From positions 1 to 23,274 of the IMG/VR virus record IMGVR_UViG_3300031280_000102: a DNA stretch of 23,274 bases; one strand, written 5' to 3'. The translations under genes and the position numbers were made by a program. This document shows positions 1,999 through 20,570 of this stretch, piece by piece. The notes beneath the pieces are model-generated. The model did no database searches and was not told the DNA's origin. It was given only the letters and a program-made list of their open reading frames with translations. The first letter of the stretch is position 1. Every line of letters begins with the position of its first letter. Source of the stretch: a virus.

Positions 1999-3564
1999 AT
2001 GTCTCTACCCCCACCATCCACCCTGCTCGGCTCCGGTTCTTGGGATTTTTGGTATCTTGGACAGGAGGATTCGTTCAAAAAATCTATGGACTGGTATAAT
2101 TCTTCGGCTCGGTTCCTTGGCCTGTCTTGCCCAACAGGCAGTGGTAAGAGTCTTCTGGCGCTGCTCCTCTCCCGGTTCTCCGACACCCGAACCGTCATAC
2201 TCACGGCGACCAAGGGTCTCCAGAGACAGTACTTCGTGGCCGCTCAACCCATCGGCGGGGTACTGGCACAGGGACAAAACAACTTCACCTGTTCTCTCGT
2301 CCCCAGCCTGCGTGCTGATGAAGGGCCGTGCCATGACGGGATGGCCTGCAATGTCAAGGAGTCCTGCCCGTACCGTGTCCAGCTCGCCCGGGCTCTCCGT
2401 TCCAACCTCGTTATCACCAACTACGCCTACTGGCTGGCGCAGACCAATTTCTCGACGGGCTTGGGGGACGTTGGTCTGCTTATCTGCGACGAAAGCCATC
2501 TCGCTTTTTCCTCGATGGAGGGGTATCTAACCATATTCCTCTCCAAGCTGGACATAGAACCTACCGGCATCCACTTCCCGCTGGACGCTACCCGCTGGGG
2601 TACGTGGCGTACCTGGGCGACAGCGTCTCTCCCCGTGGTGCAGGAGAACCTGAACCGTATCGAGGCGGACGTTCGCTCCCACCGTTCCCAGAACCTGCCC
2701 GTACCGAGCCATGTCTCCCGAGCCTACCGCACCGCCAAGTCCGTGTCCGCCAAGCTCTCCCGCCTCTCCTCGGTCGGCGAGGACTGGGTTATCCAGAAGA
2801 CCAAGCACGGTTATCGGTTCGTCCCCAAGTGGGTGTCCAACTACGCCGACCACCTCTTCCAGAAAGTCCCCAAGGTGGTGCTGATGTCGGCTATCCTCTC
2901 CCACCGCACCGCCGACTATATCGGTGTACCGTCCAACGGCGACCGATCATGGGTGGAGACGCCCTCGCACTTCCCGCCGGAGAACACTCCTATATGGCAC
3001 GTCCCGACTGCCCGAATCAACTACCGCACCGACGACTTCGGGTCAACCATCTGGGTGTCCCGTATCGACCAGATCATCCAGCGCCGGATGGACCGCAAGG
3101 GGATAGTGTTTACTGTGTCCTACGACCGCGCCAGGATGTTGCTGAGTCGCTCTCGGTTCAAGAACATCATGTACTCTCACAGCACCTCGGACGTGTATCA
3201 GGTGGTAGAGAAGTTCAAGAGCCTGAAACCTCCGGCGGTGTTGGTGTCTCCTACCGTCACGACCGGCTGGGACTTTCCGGGACTGGATTATATCGTGGTC
3301 GGAAAGATACCCTACCCCGATACCAGAGACGTTGTGACGCAGGCCAGACACGAGGACGACAAGGACTGGACGAGCTACATGGCGATGGAAACGCTGGTGC
3401 AGGAGTGCGGGCGCGGAACCCGGTCGGCGGCGGACAGGTGCGAAGTGCTTGTGGTGGACGATTCTTGGAAGTGGTTCTATCCTAAGTTTCGGGGTTTTGC
3501 TCCTCGCTGGTTCCAAGAGCGTGTGAGAGGGAGCTTAGAAACCGTCCCTGATGTTCTGGTGTAG
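1999..3564 (+). CDS. XPD/DinG-type superfamily 2 DNA helicase with a four-cysteine insert, 521 aa
   Basis: ATG 1999 is chosen over an in-frame upstream ATG because AGGGGGAG at 1983-1990 lies at normal spacing and the upstream start would overlap the methyltransferase. Motifs in order: Walker A CPTGSGKS (44-51); four cysteines C98, C111, C117 and C123, placed where XPD/DinG proteins hold their Fe-S cluster; DESH box (164-167); motif III-like MSAILS; and a C-terminal motor ending in QECGRGTRS (motif VI). It should unwind DNA using ATP during replication or repair. It ends with WFYPKFRGFAPRWF and a short conserved tail. A diverged copy of that tail occurs at 6418-6510. Confidence 0.88.
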   Translation: MSLPPPSTLLGSGSWDFWYLGQEDSFKKSMDWYNSSARFLGLSCPTGSGKSLLALLLSRFSDTRTVILTATKGLQRQYFVAAQPIGGVLAQGQNNFTCSLVPSLRADEGPCHDGMACNVKESCPYRVQLARALRSNLVITNYAYWLAQTNFSTGLGDVGLLICDESHLAFSSMEGYLTIFLSKLDIEPTGIHFPLDATRWGTWRTWATASLPVVQENLNRIEADVRSHRSQNLPVPSHVSRAYRTAKSVSAKLSRLSSVGEDWVIQKTKHGYRFVPKWVSNYADHLFQKVPKVVLMSAILSHRTADYIGVPSNGDRSWVETPSHFPPENTPIWHVPTARINYRTDDFGSTIWVSRIDQIIQRRMDRKGIVFTVSYDRARMLLSRSRFKNIMYSHSTSDVYQVVEKFKSLKPPAVLVSPTVTTGWDFPGLDYIVVGKIPYPDTRDVVTQARHEDDKDWTSYMAMETLVQECGRGTRSAADRCEVLVVDDSWKWFYPKFRGFAPRWFQERVRGSLETVPDVLV

Positions 3565-3567
3565 GAC

Positions 3568-3596
3568 TTGACAATGTTACCTGTTTGTGTTACACT
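3568..3596 (+). promoter_or_regulatory. sigma70-type promoter TTGACA-N17-TACACT
   Basis: A consensus -35 box lies at 3568-3573 and the -10 box TACACT at 3591-3596, with a 17-base spacer, starting four bases after the helicase stop. It should drive the ParB-methyltransferase fusion at 3627 and the genes behind it. Confidence 0.7.
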
Positions 3597-3626: not shown

Positions 3627-4955
3627 ATGAAAATCAGGATTGACCAGATTATTCCCGACCCAGATCAACCGAGAAAGACCTTCGACCAAGAGAAGGTTGT
3701 TGAGTTGAGCGGAAGCCTTGATACGTTAGGGCTTATCCAGCCGATAACTATTCGTCCTCATAATGGGAAGTATATGATTATCGTTGGTGAGAGACGGTTC
3801 AGGGCTGCTCAGTTGGACGGGCGGGATGAAATAGAGTGTGTTGTTAGGGAAGATGTGGATGATAAAAAGGCGAGGGAGATGCAATTCGCCGAGAATTACC
3901 ACGTTCAGGCATTGCCTCCAATGGAGCAGTTTCGTGCGTGGCATAAGCACATGACTGAGCACAATATTTCCAGAGCCGACTTTGCTCGGATAACGAACAT
4001 CAAGCGGGCAACGATTGACGAGGCTGTTACTATATTGACAGGCTTGGATGAAAATCTCACCGGTGAGATTTTGTCCGGTAAGTTGTCGGTGCGTGCCGCC
4101 CGAGAAATAGCTCATATCGGTGACATTAAACGCCAGCAGGAAGTGGCTAAGCCGATTATACGTGGTGACGTTTCTGGGGAGCGTGCTCAGGAAGTAATAC
4201 TCCAAGCTAAGGCACAGCCAGAGCGACCAATAGAGAGTATAATCGCCCATGTTCAGGAACGGGACTTGTCTAAGTACAGGAAGGTCATACAGGACGAGAA
4301 GAAGCAGCAACGTCAAGCCGTGAGGGTAGCAGAAGTCAAGTCTTCTAGCCCAGATTGTCGTGTCTTGCTCGGTGACGTGTCTGACTGGGGGGCTATCGGT
4401 CTGGAGTCAGGTTCGGTGGATGCTATTATCACTGACCCACCATACAATAAGGACTTTCTGCCTACCTTTGAGCATTTATCCTTGTTCTCTGCTTTTGTGC
4501 TTAAAGACGGTGGTTCGTTGTTCGCTATGGTCGGGCAGAGTTATTTGCCTGATGTCTTTCGTTTGCTGTCCTCTGCGTTGGATTATCACTGGACTTTAGC
4601 CTATCTTACTCCTGGTGGCCAGTCTCCTCAGTTGTGGGATAGGAAGGTCAACTCGTTCTGGAAGACTGTTCTGTGGTTCGTGAAAGGCGAGTATGACGGT
4701 AAATGGCTTGGTGATGTGGTCAAGTCCGAGGTCAATGATAATGACAAGGACTTCCACGAGTGGGGGCAGTCAGAGAGCGGTATGGCAGACCTTATAAAGC
4801 GGACTACCGAGGAAGGTGACTTAATACTTGACCCATTCGTGGGCGGTGGCACTACAGGCAGAATAGCGTTGGACTTGAAGCGGAAGTTTATCGGGATAGA
4901 CAATGACCCTGAAGCGGTCAGGTTGACTAAACAACGGCTTGGAGTGGTTGATTGA
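3627..4955 (+). CDS. ParB-like nuclease-domain protein fused to a DNA methyltransferase, 442 aa (first of two)
   Basis: The start is ATG 3627, preceded by GGAGG at 3617-3621; an in-frame TTG lies upstream without its own site. Residues 1-90 form a ParB/Srx-like N-terminal domain with PDPDQPRKTF and the GERRFRAA box (54-61), which in ParB proteins contributes to CTP binding. A helical region at about 100-170 resembles the ParB/KorB HTH. The C-terminal half has catalytic DPPY at 270-273 and SAM motif DPFVGGGTT at 402-410, the beta-class order, with FHEWGQ between them. The enzyme probably methylates DNA and uses the ParB part to bind or slide on it. Such fusions are known in phages. The target is unknown. 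Confidence 0.88.
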   Translation: MKIRIDQIIPDPDQPRKTFDQEKVVELSGSLDTLGLIQPITIRPHNGKYMIIVGERRFRAAQLDGRDEIECVVREDVDDKKAREMQFAENYHVQALPPMEQFRAWHKHMTEHNISRADFARITNIKRATIDEAVTILTGLDENLTGEILSGKLSVRAAREIAHIGDIKRQQEVAKPIIRGDVSGERAQEVILQAKAQPERPIESIIAHVQERDLSKYRKVIQDEKKQQRQAVRVAEVKSSSPDCRVLLGDVSDWGAIGLESGSVDAIITDPPYNKDFLPTFEHLSLFSAFVLKDGGSLFAMVGQSYLPDVFRLLSSALDYHWTLAYLTPGGQSPQLWDRKVNSFWKTVLWFVKGEYDGKWLGDVVKSEVNDNDKDFHEWGQSESGMADLIKRTTEEGDLILDPFVGGGTTGRIALDLKRKFIGIDNDPEAVRLTKQRLGVVD

Positions 4956-5602
4956 CATTTATAGTCGGTGACAGGTACGAGAACAATATTGGAAAGTATC
5001 GGGTTCTCATTATCACTGGAGACCTGATGACCGTTCAGTATGAGGACGGTCATCAGCAAATGCTGTCTGTTAAGCTACAGGAGCAGATACTCACGAATCG
5101 GCGGACTAGATTGGCTAATCCTCCTACTTCGATTAGTGATGGTAGGAAAGCAGTGCGGTCGTATAAGTGGGTTGACGGCAGAGCTTACCAGACGATGGGG
5201 TTTCTCTCGAAGCGAGTAATTCGCATTGGTGCTAACCTTACTACAGACAAGGCTCAAAACTTTAGAGAGGAGTATCAGTTTATTAAGGGTGTTCCCTTGA
5301 CCGATGACCGCGATGCTGTGAGTTTTCTACGGGAGGGTGCTAACCAGTGGGGCAATCAGGGGGTCATTCGCTTCAGGGCAAAGGATACGGAGTTGTCCTT
5401 GTTGTCCTTCTCACGGAAAGGGAATACACCTTATGCATCTGACGAGCATTGGGAGATAAAGGATATGGGTTTCCTGTTCTTCCTGCTTGAACACGGATTT
5501 GAGTTAGGTAGCAACCAAGACGAGGGTGCTATTCTGGTAAGGATACCTTCGTCTCAGCGTTTGTTTTTTGATAAGGGAGTGGAATATGGTCTACGTTCAT
5601 AA
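4952..5602 (+). CDS. hypothetical protein, 216 aa, TTG start
   Basis: The frame opens at TTG 4952, which overlaps the upstream TGA stop (TTGA), with GGAG at 4941-4944. The nearest in-frame ATG would remove a conserved-looking N-terminus. Residues 1-40 (GDRYENNIGKYRVL, then VQYEDG) look like a small SH3- or Tudor-like beta domain of a kind seen at the front of various phage and microbial proteins. The remainder (about 60-216) is mixed alpha/beta with no recognisable catalytic motif. It is coupled to the methyltransferase and to the zinc ribbon that follows, which begins inside its end. Function unknown. Confidence 0.7.
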   Translation: MTFIVGDRYENNIGKYRVLIITGDLMTVQYEDGHQQMLSVKLQEQILTNRRTRLANPPTSISDGRKAVRSYKWVDGRAYQTMGFLSKRVIRIGANLTTDKAQNFREEYQFIKGVPLTDDRDAVSFLREGANQWGNQGVIRFRAKDTELSLLSFSRKGNTPYASDEHWEIKDMGFLFFLLEHGFELGSNQDEGAILVRIPSSQRLFFDKGVEYGLRS

Positions 5603-5720
5603 GTGTCTCCGCTGTGGTTATGAGTGGGCATCCCGTAATCCCCATCCCACTCGGTGTGCCAAGTGTAAGACACCCTACTGGGATAAGGAGAGGAGGAGCA
5701 GTGAGCAGAAGAGCGACTGA
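5586..5720 (+). CDS. zinc-ribbon protein, 44 aa
   Basis: This short gene begins at ATG 5586 inside the end of the previous gene and ends at TGA 5718-5720. It carries two CxxC knuckles, C7-x2-C10-G and C24-x2-C27, separated by a basic turn. A Tyr-Trp pair then precedes a charged tail. The pattern C-x2-CG...W...R...C-x2-C is a frequent small phage zinc ribbon, thought to bind nucleic acid or protein. It overlaps the following HNH gene by 20 bases. The tight overlap on both sides supports it as real. Confidence 0.7.
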   Translation: MVYVHKCLRCGYEWASRNPHPTRCAKCKTPYWDKERRSSEQKSD

Positions 5721-6417
5721 GAAAGAGAAAGCGAAGATGAGAGCCGAGTATGCTGCTGACCCTGAGAAGTACAAAGCTAAGTCAGCTCAGTACCGGGTTG
5801 ACAATCCTGACAAGGTTAAAGCTGCGTCTATCCGTTATCGTCAGAAGAACCGCACTCGTATTACTGCCAAAGCACGTATGCGTAATGACAGATTGCACAG
5901 GGAGACTATCTTGGCCTATGGTGGGAAGTGTGCTATTTGTGGTGAAGTAGTGACAGAGTTTCTTTGTCTTGACCACGTCAATGGAGATGGGGCTGAGGAT
6001 CGCCGGAAAGGCTTGATGGGCAATAAACTCTATAGGCATCTTAAAGAACAGGGCTGGCCGAAGGGCAGGTTGCGGGTTCTCTGCTATAACTGCAACTTTG
6101 GGTTAGCTTTGCATCGAGCTATGTCTGTTCCTCAGCCAGTACGCCAACGACGCTACACGCGGGGAGTAAAAGCAGAGGTAATTGCTGCTTACGGGGGGGA
6201 GTGCGTTTGTTGTGGAGAGACCAACCCTCTCTTCTTGTCTATTGATCACATTAATGGAGGTGGTCAAGCGGAGAGGAGAAAGTACGGTAGGGGAAGAGTC
6301 TTTTACCAGTATCTCAAGTCCTTGGGTTACCCGAAGGACAAGTACCGCTTGCTCTGTCATAATTGTAACGCCTCCTTCGGACACTACGGATACTGCCCGC
6401 ACAGGGGACTGCGATAA
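5701..6417 (+). CDS. tandem double-HNH endonuclease, 238 aa, GTG start
   Basis: GTG 5701 is preferred because GGAGAGGAGG lies directly upstream; an in-frame ATG at 5614 would run through the zinc ribbon gene. Residues 1-65 are basic with repeated helical segments (EKYKAK, DKVKAA). Two HNH-type units follow. Unit 1 has C77-x2-C80, D91-H92 and C128-x2-C131. Unit 2 has C168-x2-C171, D182-H183 and C219-x2-C222. Corresponding residues are exactly 91 apart. HNH enzymes cut DNA with one metal ion, and free-standing phage versions often act as homing nucleases. The stop codon directly abuts an in-frame helicase-tail remnant, which fits a homing event. Confidence 0.85.
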   Translation: MSRRATEKEKAKMRAEYAADPEKYKAKSAQYRVDNPDKVKAASIRYRQKNRTRITAKARMRNDRLHRETILAYGGKCAICGEVVTEFLCLDHVNGDGAEDRRKGLMGNKLYRHLKEQGWPKGRLRVLCYNCNFGLALHRAMSVPQPVRQRRYTRGVKAEVIAAYGGECVCCGETNPLFLSIDHINGGGQAERRKYGRGRVFYQYLKSLGYPKDKYRLLCHNCNASFGHYGYCPHRGLR

Positions 6418-6510
6418 TGGTTTATGTACAAATATGCGAGTTTTGCGCCGGCTTGGTTCAGAGAACGCTATCGGGGAAGTCTGGAAGTAGTGCCGGAGCC
6501 GTTAGTTTGA
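6418..6510 (+). pseudogene. remnant of the 3' end of a second, diverged helicase gene
   Basis: Immediately after the HNH stop, and in the same frame, 30 codons (6418-6507) and TGA 6508-6510 encode a peptide matching the last 30 residues of the helicase at 1999-3564 at 19 of 30 positions. There are no gaps and the stop falls at the same place. Shared blocks include WF at the start, FAP-x-WF, ER, RGSLE, VP and LV at the end. The match is mainly at protein level, so this is not a recent duplication. No start codon with a ribosome site or motor domain is attached. Confidence 0.75.
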
Positions 6511-6518
6511 TTACCCTA

Positions 6519-6547
6519 TTGACAAACCCCCCAACCCGTGATACAAT
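6519..6547 (+). promoter_or_regulatory. strong sigma70-type promoter TTGACA-N17-TACAAT
   Basis: The -35 box TTGACA lies at 6519-6524 and TACAAT at 6542-6547, with a 17-base spacer: eleven of twelve consensus bases. Predicted start is near 6554, giving a leader of about 70 bases before the gene at 6627. The leader carries the 9-bp palindrome CGTGACACG (6561-6569) and an inverted GTCACG (6595-6600), possible sites for the ribbon-helix-helix protein encoded first in this operon. It follows a helicase tail, as the promoter at 3568 does. Confidence 0.8.
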
Positions 6548-6626: not shown

Positions 6627-6779
6627 GTGTACCACGTAGAGCTTGACATCAGTCAGGCTCAGAAGAAGCAGCTCAAACAAGCTGCGCTGGACGAGGGTCA
6701 GACAGTAAAAGCATACGTCACCGCTCTCGTCTTGGTCGACTTATCGAAAAAACAAAAGAAGGAGGATAACACAAGTTAA
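6627..6779 (+). CDS. ribbon-helix-helix (CopG/Arc-like) small protein, 50 aa, GTG start
   Basis: GTG 6627 follows AAGGAGGT at 6613-6620. The product has the layout of a ribbon-helix-helix repressor: a short beta strand with alternating residues (YHVELDIS), then a helix (AQKKQLKQAALDEG), a turn and a second helix (TVKAYVTALVLVDLSKK). Proteins of this fold dimerise and insert the strand into the DNA major groove. As the first gene after a strong promoter it could repress its own operon through the palindromes in the leader, which is inference. Its TAA overlaps the next ATG (TAATG), giving coupled translation. Confidence 0.7.
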   Translation: MYHVELDISQAQKKQLKQAALDEGQTVKAYVTALVLVDLSKKQKKEDNTS

Positions 6780-7549
6780 TGGTTTCAATAAAACCAAGTG
6801 AAATGGTCGAAGGGGGAGCAGTCCCCGTTGACCGCAACCTGACCTGGAAGGAGTGCCGGTTCAACCTGTTCGAGTATAAGACCAAAGCCGGTGAGGTGGT
6901 CGCCACAACCTGCGCTCTCCGCATCAATTACGTCGATGACGACGGGCAGGATTTCGAGCAGCAATACTCCGTGTCCGACCCTGAGCGGTTCATCCCGTCG
7001 CAGGACGGCAAGACCCTCGTAGCTGTCGGCTCCGCCGAGGTGCTGTCCAAGTCCTCGAACTTCTACGTCTTGATGAACGCCCTCGTCAACGCCGGCTTCC
7101 CGGAGAACCGTCTGGAAGATGACGTGTCTACTCTTGACGGTCTCATCACCTACAACATCGGTATGCCGATGCCCAAGAGGGCTGGACTGGCGTCTGCGGT
7201 TCCCACCGAGGGTGCTCGTGAGCGTATCCTATCCGTACCCTCCCAAGTTATCAAACTTCCGTGGGAGAAGGGCAAAGGCAAGGCGGCTCCCGCCAAGGCC
7301 AAAGCACCCGCTGAAGACGAGGAGACCAGCGAGGATGTCAACGAAGCGGCTCTGGCGTTCGTCACCGAAGCCGTCGAGGAAATCGGCACGATCACCCGCC
7401 AGCAGCTGGCTACCCGGCTCTTCAAGAAGGAAGCCAAGAACCCGAACAAGGACGCCATCGCAACCCTGCTGTTCAAGCCTGAGTTCCAGGCTACCCTGCT
7501 CGCCAACGGTTTCACCGTGGACGGCGAGGATGTAGGCAAGGCGGAATAG
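6779..7549 (+). CDS. probable ssDNA-binding-like replication protein, 256 aa
   Basis: ATG 6779 overlaps the preceding TAA, with AAGGAGGA upstream. Residues 1-135 are beta-rich (WKECRFNLFEYKTKAGE, CALRINYVDDDG). A segment follows on seating in a complex (YVLMNALVNAGFPENRL). Then comes an Ala/Pro/Lys linker with acidic stretches at about 160-185. The C-terminal 70 residues look like a winged helix (ITRQQLATRLF, IATLLFKPEF). Position among replication genes and the beta-rich domain plus acidic linker suggest an SSB- or gp2.5-like role. I see no diagnostic motif, so the function is an inference from layout and neighbours. Confidence 0.6.
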   Translation: MVSIKPSEMVEGGAVPVDRNLTWKECRFNLFEYKTKAGEVVATTCALRINYVDDDGQDFEQQYSVSDPERFIPSQDGKTLVAVGSAEVLSKSSNFYVLMNALVNAGFPENRLEDDVSTLDGLITYNIGMPMPKRAGLASAVPTEGARERILSVPSQVIKLPWEKGKGKAAPAKAKAPAEDEETSEDVNEAALAFVTEAVEEIGTITRQQLATRLFKKEAKNPNKDAIATLLFKPEFQATLLANGFTVDGEDVGKAE

Positions 7550-7666: not shown

Positions 7667-8935
7667 ATGGTTGAGATAAAGATAGACCCTGAGTTCCAGT
7701 CCCTTGTCCCGCCAATGGCTGAGGACGAGAAGCGAGAGTTGGAAGCCAGTCTGTTGTCTGAGGGAAACCGAGACCCTATTGTGGTCTGGGAAGGACAAGG
7801 AATACTGGTTGATGGTCACTCCCGATACGAGATTTGTAATCGGTTGGGGGTAGAGTTGAAACCGCCGCTGGAGATGGAGTTCGATGATAGGGATGAGGTC
7901 AAGGTCTGGATACTTCGCAACCAGTTGGGGCGGCGCAATCTCAACCCGTTCGTGCGGACATCACTGACGTTGAAGTTGGAGGAGTTGATAAGACCGAAGG
8001 CGAAGGAGAATTTGGTAACTTCTACGGGCGGGTTAAAGCCTCGGCCCTTGCAGAAATCTGCAAAGGCCGAGCCAGTTGATGTCCGGAAGGAAGTCGCTAA
8101 AATTGCTGGTGTCTCCCACGATACGGTCGCTAAGGTCAAGGTTATTGAACAGAAGGCTACTCCTGAGCAGCGGGAGAAGTTAGTCAAGGGTGATGAGAGT
8201 ATCAATGCCGTCTACAAGGAAGTGAAGCGACAGGAGAAGCGAGAAAAGCGGGAGGAGCAACGCAGACAACTTGTGGCTGAAGCATCAAGTAGACCTGCCA
8301 CAGACGACTCTGGCATTCTGGTTGGTGATTTGTCCTTACTGGATGCCAAGCTGGACGATGATTCGGTTGACCTGTTTTTTACTGACCCTCCCTACAAGGG
8401 GGATGACGACAGCGTGGCACTATATGGCAGGTTAGCAGATTTAGCACAAGCAAAGTTGAAGCCTGGTGGTCTATGCCTTGCTTATACCCCCCACGCCCAC
8501 TTGTCTGATATTATAAAAGCGATGGTTACTAAAGACCGTCTGTCGTTCTGTTGGGTCTTTGCTGTCGAACAGATGGGAGGGGAGGCCAGAATCTGGAAAT
8601 ACAATTTCTGGGTGAAGTGGAAGCCTATCTTGGTTCTGACCAAGGCGCCACCTGTGAAGCGTTTGACTGATACTTGGGTGATGGATAGCATCCGGGGTGA
8701 AGGTGAGGATAAGCGTTTTCACGACTGGGGGCAAGATGTCCGAGAAGCAGCTTACTGGATTGAAGCTCTCACTCCGACAGGAGGATTGGTCGTTGACCCC
8801 TTTTGCGGTGGAGGGACAGTGCCCTTCGCTGTAAGGCTGTGTGGGGACGGGCTTCACTGTATTGCTTGCGACAAGGACGAGGCTTCCGTCCTGCTTACAA
8901 GAGCCAGACTGGAGGCTGTTAGTGGCGAGAGTTGA
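7667..8935 (+). CDS. ParB-like nuclease-domain protein fused to a DNA methyltransferase, 422 aa (second of two)
   Basis: ATG 7667 follows AAAAGGAG. Residues 1-100 form a ParB/Srx-like domain, with DGHSRYEI at 49-56 in place of the GERR box of the first fusion. A middle part contains an HTH-like VAKIAGVSHDTVAKVKVI segment and a highly charged Lys/Glu/Arg helix near 185-205. The C-terminal methyltransferase has catalytic DPPYKG at 240-245, FHDWGQ, and SAM motif DPFCGGGT at 377-384. It shares the F-H-x-W-G-Q motif and domain order with the fusion at 3627, but the N-terminal halves differ. The two probably read different sites. Phage self-protection is the most economical role; target base unknown. 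Confidence 0.86.
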   Translation: MVEIKIDPEFQSLVPPMAEDEKRELEASLLSEGNRDPIVVWEGQGILVDGHSRYEICNRLGVELKPPLEMEFDDRDEVKVWILRNQLGRRNLNPFVRTSLTLKLEELIRPKAKENLVTSTGGLKPRPLQKSAKAEPVDVRKEVAKIAGVSHDTVAKVKVIEQKATPEQREKLVKGDESINAVYKEVKRQEKREKREEQRRQLVAEASSRPATDDSGILVGDLSLLDAKLDDDSVDLFFTDPPYKGDDDSVALYGRLADLAQAKLKPGGLCLAYTPHAHLSDIIKAMVTKDRLSFCWVFAVEQMGGEARIWKYNFWVKWKPILVLTKAPPVKRLTDTWVMDSIRGEGEDKRFHDWGQDVREAAYWIEALTPTGGLVVDPFCGGGTVPFAVRLCGDGLHCIACDKDEASVLLTRARLEAVSGES

Positions 8936-17852: not shown

Positions 17853-20570
17853 ATGTCTCCCTACTACAACCGACAACCAGCCGTACTGCCGTCCCCCGAC
17901 ACTCTCCCGTTCCCCGGCAACCTCATCCGGCAGTGTACCGACTGCCCCCTTGTCAGGTCTTGTACAGCCCCCGTCCCCGGCGAAGGGTCGTTCCCTGCCG
18001 AGGTCATGTTCGTGGGAGAGGCGCCGGGTCGTAACGAGGACGAACAAGGAAGGCCGTTTGTAGGCCAAGCCGGCCAGTACTTGGACTCCCTCCTGTTCTC
18101 AATCTCCGTCCCGAGGGAGGACGTGTACATCTCCAATATCGCCCATTGTCGGCCACCGGGCAACCGAGACCCCAAGCCCACCGAGATTAAAGCCTGCGCG
18201 AAGTGGCTCAACCTTGAACTTGAGGTCGTCCAGCCCCGCATCGTAGTGGCGCTGGGAGCGTTCGCCATATCCCACTTCCTCGGCGCAGGAGCCGGAACCG
18301 TCGAGCATCTCCACGGTCGTCCCGTCGAAGTGGACGGTCGTATTATCCTCCCAGCCTATCATCCAGCCGCAGCCCTCCGTAACACGAACCTCATACGGAT
18401 GTGCCAAGAGGACTTCCAGGTACTCCGTGGCCTCATCCGGGGCGATTCTCCCGCCGACTACCACGTCCAAGACGAGTATCCCGACCCGGACTACCGGATG
18501 GCCGATGCGTCCGAGGGCGGCGTCGGTATGTTGAAGGCACTCGCCGAGACGACAGGACACTACGCTGTCGATACCGAGGTCTGCGCGGGTAAGTTATGGA
18601 GTATGCAGGTGAGTACCCGTCCCGGTACAGCGTGGTTCGTGCGTCTACCTGATGACTTGCAGGGGAGAGTTGACCTCACCGACTGGAACTCGACGGCACT
18701 CATACACAACTACCTCTTTGATATTCAATATATCAACGTCAGGGACGACAGGTTCGTAGATTCTATGGTTTGCTCCTACCTCCTCGGGCTCCCACAAGGA
18801 TTGAAAGAGCTTGCCAGCCGTCTATGTGGTATCAAGATGGTCAACTACCGTGAGATAGTCCGCCCCGGTCAACTGGAACTGTCTCTCGACTACCTTGACA
18901 AGGTCGGCGAGCAGGAGTGGCCTGACCCGCCCGAAGTGGAAGAGACCAAGTGGGACAATAAGCAAGGCAAGATAGGGACTCGGGTCAAGCACCCGTGGCA
19001 CATCTCCCGCAAGGTGGCCAAGATACTGGGGGATATGGACACGAACCCCGAGACCGACCCGTTCGACCGCTGGCGACAGATACCGGCAGTGGAGAGGGCA
19101 GTAGTTGAGAATGTGCTTGGTCCTATGCCGGAGTCGTCTCTCAAAGATATCCCTCTCGACAAGGCGGTACAATACGCCGCCCGTGACGCTGATGCAGATT
19201 TACGGGTCTACCTGAAACTCCGCAAGATGATAGACGACCTCGACCTCAACTTCGTCCTCCGCATGGACACGAACATCCTCCCGATGGTTCACTCCATGAT
19301 GCAGAACGGCATGGCGATAGACCTTGAACACGTCCGCAACCTGTCCGAGGACTATGACGCCCGCATGAGAGCCAAGGCGACCGAGCTGGCCAGCATCGTC
19401 GGTCACCCGTTCAACCCGAGCAGTTCCCAGCAGGTCGCCGCCGTGGTATATGACGAACTCGGCTTCAAGCCGACCAAGCGCACCGAGACTGGGCTGATAT
19501 CCACCGACGATCAGGAACTGAAGAAGATCAGCCACCCTGTCATCAAGGGGATATTGCAGTACCGAAGTCTTAATAAAAACAAAGGGACGTACGCCGACAA
19601 CCTGTTGACCAACAACACCCCCGATGCCAGCGGTACTCCGCGGATACACACGACGCTGACCACGACCCGCACCGAGACGGGCAGGCTGAGTTCCAAGAAG
19701 AGCGATGACGGCGAGGGTATGGCTCTACAGAATATCCCGACGAGGAATAAGGAGGCCAAGGCAATCAAGAACGCTTTTGTCGCTCCCGATGGGTGGGTGC
19801 TGGCCGAAGGGGATTTGGGACAGATAGAGCTGTGTACCCAAGCTCACATCGCACGATGTAAAGGACTGGTAGAGTTATTCAACGCAGGTCGTGACCCTCA
19901 CACCGAGTCAGCTGCGCGTCTCTTCGGGGTGTCGCTTGAGGATGCTGCTTTAACCAAGTACCGTTACCCTGTCAAGAGGGCGGCTTACGGTGTCATATAC
20001 CTTATGGGAGCCGAGGGATTGTCTGCTCAGATTGCCGAGTACGTCGCAGACCTCGAACTGGACGGTGAGCCTGTTGACGTTGAACCGTGGGATGTACCGA
20101 CCTGCGAGAAGTTCATTGAAGACTATTACAACCTCTACCCCGAGATAAGGGATTACCAGATGGAGCAACTTGCTCACGCTAGACGGTATGGTTACGTCCG
20201 TGACCCGATATCTGGTCGTATCCGCTATATTCCCGAGGTGTCTTGTCCTGTGAAATCAGTCCAAGAGGCAGGTGCTAGAATGGCTGCCAATATGCCCGTG
20301 ACGTCTTCGGCGCAAACCATCATAAAACTGGCGATGGCGGAATTGTGGCGGGAACTCCCCAAAACGGAGTGGTCAGTAACCAGAGCATTGATGCAAGTCC
20401 ATGACAGTCTGGTGTTTGAACTACCCGACGACGACGAGTTCGTGCGAGGGTGTCTGGGATACGTCCATGACGTGATGTGCGGAGTGGTCAAGCTACTCGT
20501 TCCTGTCAAGGCGGATTTCAAAGTGGGGAAGCGGTGGGGTGAGTTAGAAAAGCTCGACTTGACAAAGTGA
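17853..20570 (+). CDS. uracil-DNA glycosylase (family 4-like) fused to family A DNA polymerase, 905 aa
   Basis: Residues 1-195 are a family 4-type uracil-DNA glycosylase: GEAPG (55-59), GRPFVGQAG (66-74), CRPPGNRDP (99-107) and YHPAA (169-173). Cys28, Cys31, Cys99 and Cys115 have the spacing of the 4Fe-4S ligands of thermophilic UDGa. Residues from about 235 hold a 3'-5' exonuclease (D240-T-E242, then NYLFD and DSMVCSYLLG). The polymerase core has motif A EGDLGQIEL (D654), motif B VKRAAYGVIYLMG (K708, Y712) and motif C VHDSLVFE (H850, D851). Y712 lies where E. coli Pol I has Phe762, and Ser852 replaces the usual Glu. It probably replicates phage DNA and removes or checks uracil in the same chain. 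Confidence 0.92.
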   Translation: MSPYYNRQPAVLPSPDTLPFPGNLIRQCTDCPLVRSCTAPVPGEGSFPAEVMFVGEAPGRNEDEQGRPFVGQAGQYLDSLLFSISVPREDVYISNIAHCRPPGNRDPKPTEIKACAKWLNLELEVVQPRIVVALGAFAISHFLGAGAGTVEHLHGRPVEVDGRIILPAYHPAAALRNTNLIRMCQEDFQVLRGLIRGDSPADYHVQDEYPDPDYRMADASEGGVGMLKALAETTGHYAVDTEVCAGKLWSMQVSTRPGTAWFVRLPDDLQGRVDLTDWNSTALIHNYLFDIQYINVRDDRFVDSMVCSYLLGLPQGLKELASRLCGIKMVNYREIVRPGQLELSLDYLDKVGEQEWPDPPEVEETKWDNKQGKIGTRVKHPWHISRKVAKILGDMDTNPETDPFDRWRQIPAVERAVVENVLGPMPESSLKDIPLDKAVQYAARDADADLRVYLKLRKMIDDLDLNFVLRMDTNILPMVHSMMQNGMAIDLEHVRNLSEDYDARMRAKATELASIVGHPFNPSSSQQVAAVVYDELGFKPTKRTETGLISTDDQELKKISHPVIKGILQYRSLNKNKGTYADNLLTNNTPDASGTPRIHTTLTTTRTETGRLSSKKSDDGEGMALQNIPTRNKEAKAIKNAFVAPDGWVLAEGDLGQIELCTQAHIARCKGLVELFNAGRDPHTESAARLFGVSLEDAALTKYRYPVKRAAYGVIYLMGAEGLSAQIAEYVADLELDGEPVDVEPWDVPTCEKFIEDYYNLYPEIRDYQMEQLAHARRYGYVRDPISGRIRYIPEVSCPVKSVQEAGARMAANMPVTSSAQTIIKLAMAELWRELPKTEWSVTRALMQVHDSLVFELPDDDEFVRGCLGYVHDVMCGVVKLLVPVKADFKVGKRWGELEKLDLTK

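Follow-up and report, generated by a model that had tools for sequence, protein, structure and literature searches.

A phage helicase locus suggests a splicing-free HNH homing element that brings its own replacement gene end

Introduction

On the usual view, homing genes reach essential genes mainly inside introns or inteins, or else sit harmlessly between genes. Mobile ORFs (mORFs) of fungal mitochondria that bring a foreign carboxy-terminus are known from atp6 of Allomyces macrogynus and from atp6, atp9, cox2 and nad3 of Glomus sp.; their hybrid transcripts join the gene body to the inserted end (PMC3630166). In these cases an essential gene harbours an endonuclease gene in its 3′ part; a foreign C-terminus is fused in frame before the endonuclease gene and the displaced native C-terminus stands directly behind it, and an intron is unnecessary. 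The free-standing homing endonucleases of phages, such as those of the seg and mob type in T4 and the homing endonuclease genes (HEGs) of ICP1 (PMC10448857) or the lactococcal HNH genes (PMC12724721), are stand-alone nucleases beside a conserved gene, vary in their presence and are associated with exchange of flanking DNA. A functional analogy is provided by the home-and-rescue and Cleave and Rescue drives, synthetic, CRISPR-based systems that cleave an essential gene and provide a cut-resistant copy in its stead (PMC7968924, PMC7951863); they have no relationship to the phage element discussed below.

Here we analyse a virus contig of 23,274 bases (IMG/VR record IMGVR_UViG_3300031280_000102), the whole of which we call the window, where a helicase gene is followed by an HNH gene and a detached second helicase end. 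Like the mORFs, the locus has an additional gene end, in frame, ahead of the endonuclease and a displaced end directly behind it, and both features are also found in the phage loci L005, L068 and L128. It differs in being of phage origin, in having an HNH enzyme in place of a LAGLIDADG or GIY-YIG endonuclease, in the extra genes carried by the window block and in the existence of mirror-image cases at 5′ gene ends; the phage cases are described here from their sequences. The properties listed above for free-standing phage HEGs are shared as well, but these are located between genes or in introns, and no report was found of one with a replacement gene end before it and a displaced end behind. 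In the open-access literature searched, which most subscription papers lie outside, we found no phage instance of such an anatomy. What we call new is its HNH-based form, its occurrence in phages and at either gene end, and the extra genes in the window; the anatomy itself is known from fungal mitochondria.

Results

The window encodes an XPD/DinG-like superfamily 2 helicase (1999-3564, + strand, like the features listed below up to 7549) that matches XPD, FANCJ and DinG chains by profile. Its body, residues 1-491 (1999-3471), is recognized by PF13307 (1.8e-12) and by the helicase family PHROG 2488 (1.9e-59). The last 30 codons and stop (3472-3564), here called the attached tail, are the proposed insert-borne replacement end; the left boundary of this segment is uncertain and lies at about codon 485-492. 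Pfam Helicase_C_2 covers residues 366-505 and the FANCJ profile alignment runs on through the first part of the tail, which therefore closes helicase domain 2 and is no dispensable appendage. A promoter-like sequence, TTGACA-N17-TACACT (3568-3596), begins 3 nt past the helicase stop and is followed by an operon of four overlapping genes. These encode a fusion of a ParB domain with an N4/N6 DNA methyltransferase (3627-4955; PF02195 1e-22, PF01555 3e-21), a protein of unknown function (4952-5602) that overlaps its neighbours and gave no match in Pfam, PHROG, NCBIfam or phage tblastn, a small protein (5586-5720) that is zinc-ribbon-like by its two CxxC pairs and for which Pfam and PHROG searches gave no family, and an HNH endonuclease with two HNH units (5701-6417; PHROG 2255 HNH, 3e-18), the proposed homing endonuclease. 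Its assignment to the HNH endonucleases is based on the HNH motif, flanking CxxC pairs and the family match; PF02945 gives it 17.8 bits, below the curated cut-off, and gives the corresponding enzyme of L005 31.4 bits, above it.

Directly after the HNH stop (TAA, 6415-6417; gap 0 nt) and in frame with it, 30 codons and a stop (6418-6510) encode WFMYKYASFAPAWFRERYRGSLEVVPEPLV. This orphan tail aligns without gaps to the C-terminal 30 residues of the helicase and matches them at 19/30 positions, a score reached by 0 of 100,000 shuffles, and a tblastn search of the window with the helicase recovers the site at 9e-8. Against a profile built from 15 native tails of other phages, with the window and L005 excluded, the orphan scores 70.1 bits (E 4.4e-21), far from chance level, and the attached tail scores lower, at 61.7 bits. 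By its sequence the orphan is a well-kept helicase C-terminus rather than a chance match, which bears out the initial annotation's reading of these codons as the end of a displaced helicase; it would be either recently displaced, with little time for decay, or renewed. Nor does it behave as a conserved independent small gene: in an IMG/VR scan with the tail pattern, L005 alone has a second, detached tail (two matches on one contig), and each remaining match examined terminates a long helicase ORF.

A second promoter-like sequence, TTGACA-N17-TACAAT (6519-6547), starts 8 nt past the orphan stop, so that both tails are followed by a TTGACA promoter, as had been noticed initially, each with a 17-nt spacer. 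Behind it lie two native downstream genes, one for a ParD-like small protein (6627-6779; PF09386 2.5e-5, 25.0 bits, which is below the cut-off of 27.3) whose place is conserved in L005, L006, L011, L111, L115 and L116, the other for a protein (6779-7549) without a family match that owes the label ssDNA-binding-like to the initial annotation and is conserved at 44-63% identity in nearly all helicase relatives. The same layout is found behind the native helicase in L115/L125 and L011, where a single tail is followed after 4-7 nt by a TTGACA promoter and then by the parD-like and ssb-like genes; in L004 the ssb-like gene comes next after a single helicase tail. The ancestral order of helicase, promoter and ssb-like gene, into which the block was supposed to have entered, thus still exists, with a parD-like gene in it. 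Phages with the helicase tail almost directly before the downstream genes had been predicted, and L115, L011 and L004 are such phages; the helicase of L115 ends in FAPAWFRERYRGTMDTVPNPLV, which resembles the end that had been named for the search.

In the relative L005 the order is helicase, HNH, orphan tail, methyltransferase, parD-like and ssb-like gene. Its HNH protein is 51% identical to that of the window and its orphan begins 2 nt after the HNH stop; the three extra genes of the window block, among them the ParB-methyltransferase fusion, are absent from this place. In L006 an intact helicase gene is followed after 14 nt by the same methyltransferase as stands behind the L005 orphan, and the orphan therefore occupies the place expected of the native helicase end. 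An HNH gene of the window type was present at the helicase locus in 0 of 7 relatives (L006, L119, L012, L011, L115, L116 and L113), which agrees with the HNH gene being the common factor of the two interrupted loci. L119 and L115 do have HNH genes, but distant from the helicase locus. Two more helicase searches yielded no new loci in one case and only the query itself, the L068 gene, in the other.

The helicase body of the window is nearest to those of L012 (75%) and L006 (73%), and the tails of these two match the orphan at 21/30 and 23/30 positions and the attached tail at 18/30 and 22/30; the attached tail is closest to the attached tail of L005 (22/30). Over 14 relatives, tail identities correlate with body identities with r 0.65 for the orphan and r 0.29 for the attached tail. 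GC3 is 0.50 in the attached tail versus 0.76 in the body (p 0.004) and 0.50-0.54 in the insert, and that of the orphan is also 0.50, equal to the attached tail. In the body, 20 of 449 windows reach GC3 values down to that of the tail, and the change point is best placed at codon 52, so that composition alone does not settle the direction of exchange in the window. Those three-sequence recombination tests that place a switch at codons 474-509 have p values of 0.06-0.27, which are non-significant alone. Taken as a whole, the comparison is suggestive of a foreign attached end and a native orphan in the window. The initial annotation had set the limits of the block at 3565 and 6417; its inserted nature holds, but the insert probably starts inside the helicase gene, at about codon 485-492 (near 3455-3472), rather than at 3565.

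Between L005 and L006 the helicase bodies are 85% identical, and at the end of the gene identity drops to about 60-67%. The L005 attached tail is 97% like the sole tail of L119, which has no HNH gene at the locus, and the L006 helicase, likewise without the HNH gene, shows a significant three-sequence switch at codons 437-503 (p 0.0007-0.007). The signal in L006 is perhaps the footprint of a lost element, and for L119 a later loss of the HNH gene or a different order of events is possible. With the L005 tail shared by L119 and the switch found in L006, more than one order of events is possible at the helicase loci; as judged from these alignments, exchange nevertheless occurs at the ends of the helicase gene.

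The arrangement is not confined to helicases but recurs in unrelated genes. We screened 181 related HNH ORFs (145 distinct) for those that have the end of a gene ahead of them and a homologue of this end immediately behind, or the start of a gene ahead and its homologue behind. This adjacency rule was fixed after the first cases and the cases are few, which makes the outcome more a description than a test; the same rule returned 0 cases when applied to 1,001 control ORFs taken from these loci. The tail type (gene, HNH, orphan tail) comprises the window, L005, L068 and L128. In L068 the gene encodes a 464-residue unknown phage protein with LSQAVDIDVYWRCAQELWNGLDIRRVL before the HNH gene and LDQAVDVDVYWRAAEALWGIDIRRQL behind it, and in L128 a 97-residue protein with VIYLDALDPRRE before and MVFTDALDERRGG behind, a match that is weak alone (E 0.05); the orphans of these two loci follow the HNH gene after about 0-15 nt. 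The head type is the mirror image (orphan start, HNH, then a new start with the gene) and is seen in L072/L074, where MIQRVTTKAGGEGYWFW precedes the HNH gene and the complete gene behind opens with MIQRTMTQAGGESWWFF, and in L153, with VIKYISDLKRRFDHIKI before and MIKYIGDLKRRYDHIKV behind. In total the arrangement occurs at two helicase loci and in four further genes, of which two are affected at their 3′ and two at their 5′ ends.

When the six loci are combined, GC3 of the attached ends differs from that of the bodies with z -5.4 (p 6e-8); the attached ends shift mostly towards the composition of the HNH gene and the orphans are usually native-looking, the orphan-body difference (p 0.04) being driven by the window. 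GC3 values for body, attached end, HNH and orphan are 0.86, 0.52, 0.40 and 0.77 in L068, 0.81, 0.42, 0.68 and 0.92 in L128, and 0.84, 0.59, 0.72 and 0.82 in L072. In L153 the attached and orphan ends do not differ in composition, and GC3 is uninformative in L005 too. In L068 none of 410 body windows has a GC3 down to that of the attached tail, and the change point is best placed at codon 418 of 464, which argues that the attached end came in with the insert and that the orphan is the gene's own. The direction is clearest in L068 and L128, where composition supports a foreign attached end and a native orphan; a search of annotated phages found no relatives of these two genes. In L072 the same signature supports a native displaced end and a foreign attached end.

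Annotated phages with a related HNH gene (of Arthrobacter, Streptomyces and Synechococcus, Salmonella phage Munch, and of Stenotrophomonas) showed no orphan end. Galactica (L215) has a tandem paralogue and was set aside. At L025 (5286-7500) a 150-residue start of a Dam methyltransferase, an HNH gene and a complete Dam gene follow one another; two Dam paralogues suffice to explain this, and the locus, which is either such a pair or a larger head-type case, was not counted. A search resembling tblastx produced many false duplications in GC-rich sequence without composition correction and was redone with it. Two further observations concern the HNH genes themselves: in L032 one is flanked by two tRNA-like stretches, and L036 has four related HNH genes within one 11-kb stretch.

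Discussion

We consider it probable, at roughly two chances in three, that the block, which would begin inside the helicase gene at about codon 485-492 and end at position 6417, acts as a homing element that is free-standing and non-spliced and brings its own replacement gene end. From the observed arrangement, its recurrence, the uninvaded relatives and the composition signature we infer a cycle of cutting, homing and immunity. The target of the nuclease would be the conserved 3′ end of the helicase gene in phages that lack the HNH gene, with the cut near the start of the orphan homology, and repair from the invaded genome would copy in the foreign in-frame helicase end, the extra genes and the HNH gene. 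The helicase would remain whole with its new end, which should be without an intact target and hence immune. The last 30 codons of the recipient would be displaced behind the HNH gene as an untranslated scar, and could double as right-hand homology for the next round. Methylation by the ParB-methyltransferase has been considered as a self-protection against the HNH enzyme. Structure models were weak (mean pLDDT 52 and 62) and were left unused.

In the initial annotation, an allele of a different lineage had taken the place of the old helicase. If repair of the HNH cut had swapped the whole gene in this way, the orphan would be the sole remnant of the old one, and since each tail has its own promoter, a complete helicase 3′ end with its flank would have come in. 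That GC3 of the window orphan differs from that of the body, and that the L005 attached tail goes with its body in L119, would fit such a swap. However, the tails of L012 and L006, which have the nearest bodies, agree more closely with the orphan than with the attached tail, and L068 and L128 differ from body composition at the end only. We therefore regard a whole-gene swap as unlikely; the displaced old end stands, and what was replaced is probably the C-terminal end alone. The two copies flanking the HNH gene could also have arisen by tandem duplication of the helicase end and later entry of the HNH gene between them, with no foreign end involved. Against this, the likeness of attached tail and orphan (0.63) does not exceed that between tails of different phages (means 0.54-0.63), and the copies differ in composition in L068, L128 and L072, so that this origin seems very improbable.

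Introns often house HNH genes, and the attached tail could be pictured as an alternative end with the HNH gene inside a self-splicing intron or an intein. We give this hardly any credence: at gathering thresholds Rfam matches nothing in the window, L005, L068, L072 or L153, the helicase stop of L005 lies about 30 nt ahead of the HNH start, which is too little room for a group I intron, and an intein is at odds with the HNH gene having its own start and with stops on both sides (3562-3564 and 6415-6417). It is just as hard to believe that the orphan works as a short gene of its own, for a helicase-tail peptide. The full motif retained by the window orphan (70 bits) and its in-frame ATG at 6424 speak for a peptide, but the L005 orphan lacks an in-frame ATG, GTG or TTG at its start and a detached tail is absent from other relatives.

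A homing element that brings its own replacement end, as we propose, would follow a third route into essential genes, in which the element itself supplies the missing gene piece. Whether phages host a general class of such elements, entering conserved genes at the 3′ or 5′ end without splicing, with an altered copy of that end and sometimes with cargo such as the ParB-methyltransferase operon, and thus acting as natural home-and-rescue drives, is a more tentative proposition, about which we are slightly more doubtful than confident. If general in phages, the anatomy would account for chimeric gene ends and short orphan fragments near HNH genes, offer a simple sequence signature for finding further elements and narrow the probable cut site of each nuclease down to a few codons. 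A natural counterpart of the engineered rescue drives would also become testable in laboratory phages.

Some features of the window and its relatives lie beside these questions. A second ParB-like/methyltransferase fusion is encoded at 7667-8935 of the window, downstream of the ssb-like gene, and 17853-20570 encodes a family A DNA polymerase with a fused N-terminal domain of the uracil-DNA glycosylase superfamily, to which cultured phages give distant matches only. Inteins are carried by helicases of the relatives, two in L004 (2977-6549) and one in L111, the latter sharing its motif VI site with the second L004 intein. The methyltransferase behind the helicase contains inteins at an identical position in L008 (1972-4701) and L012 (7214-9754).
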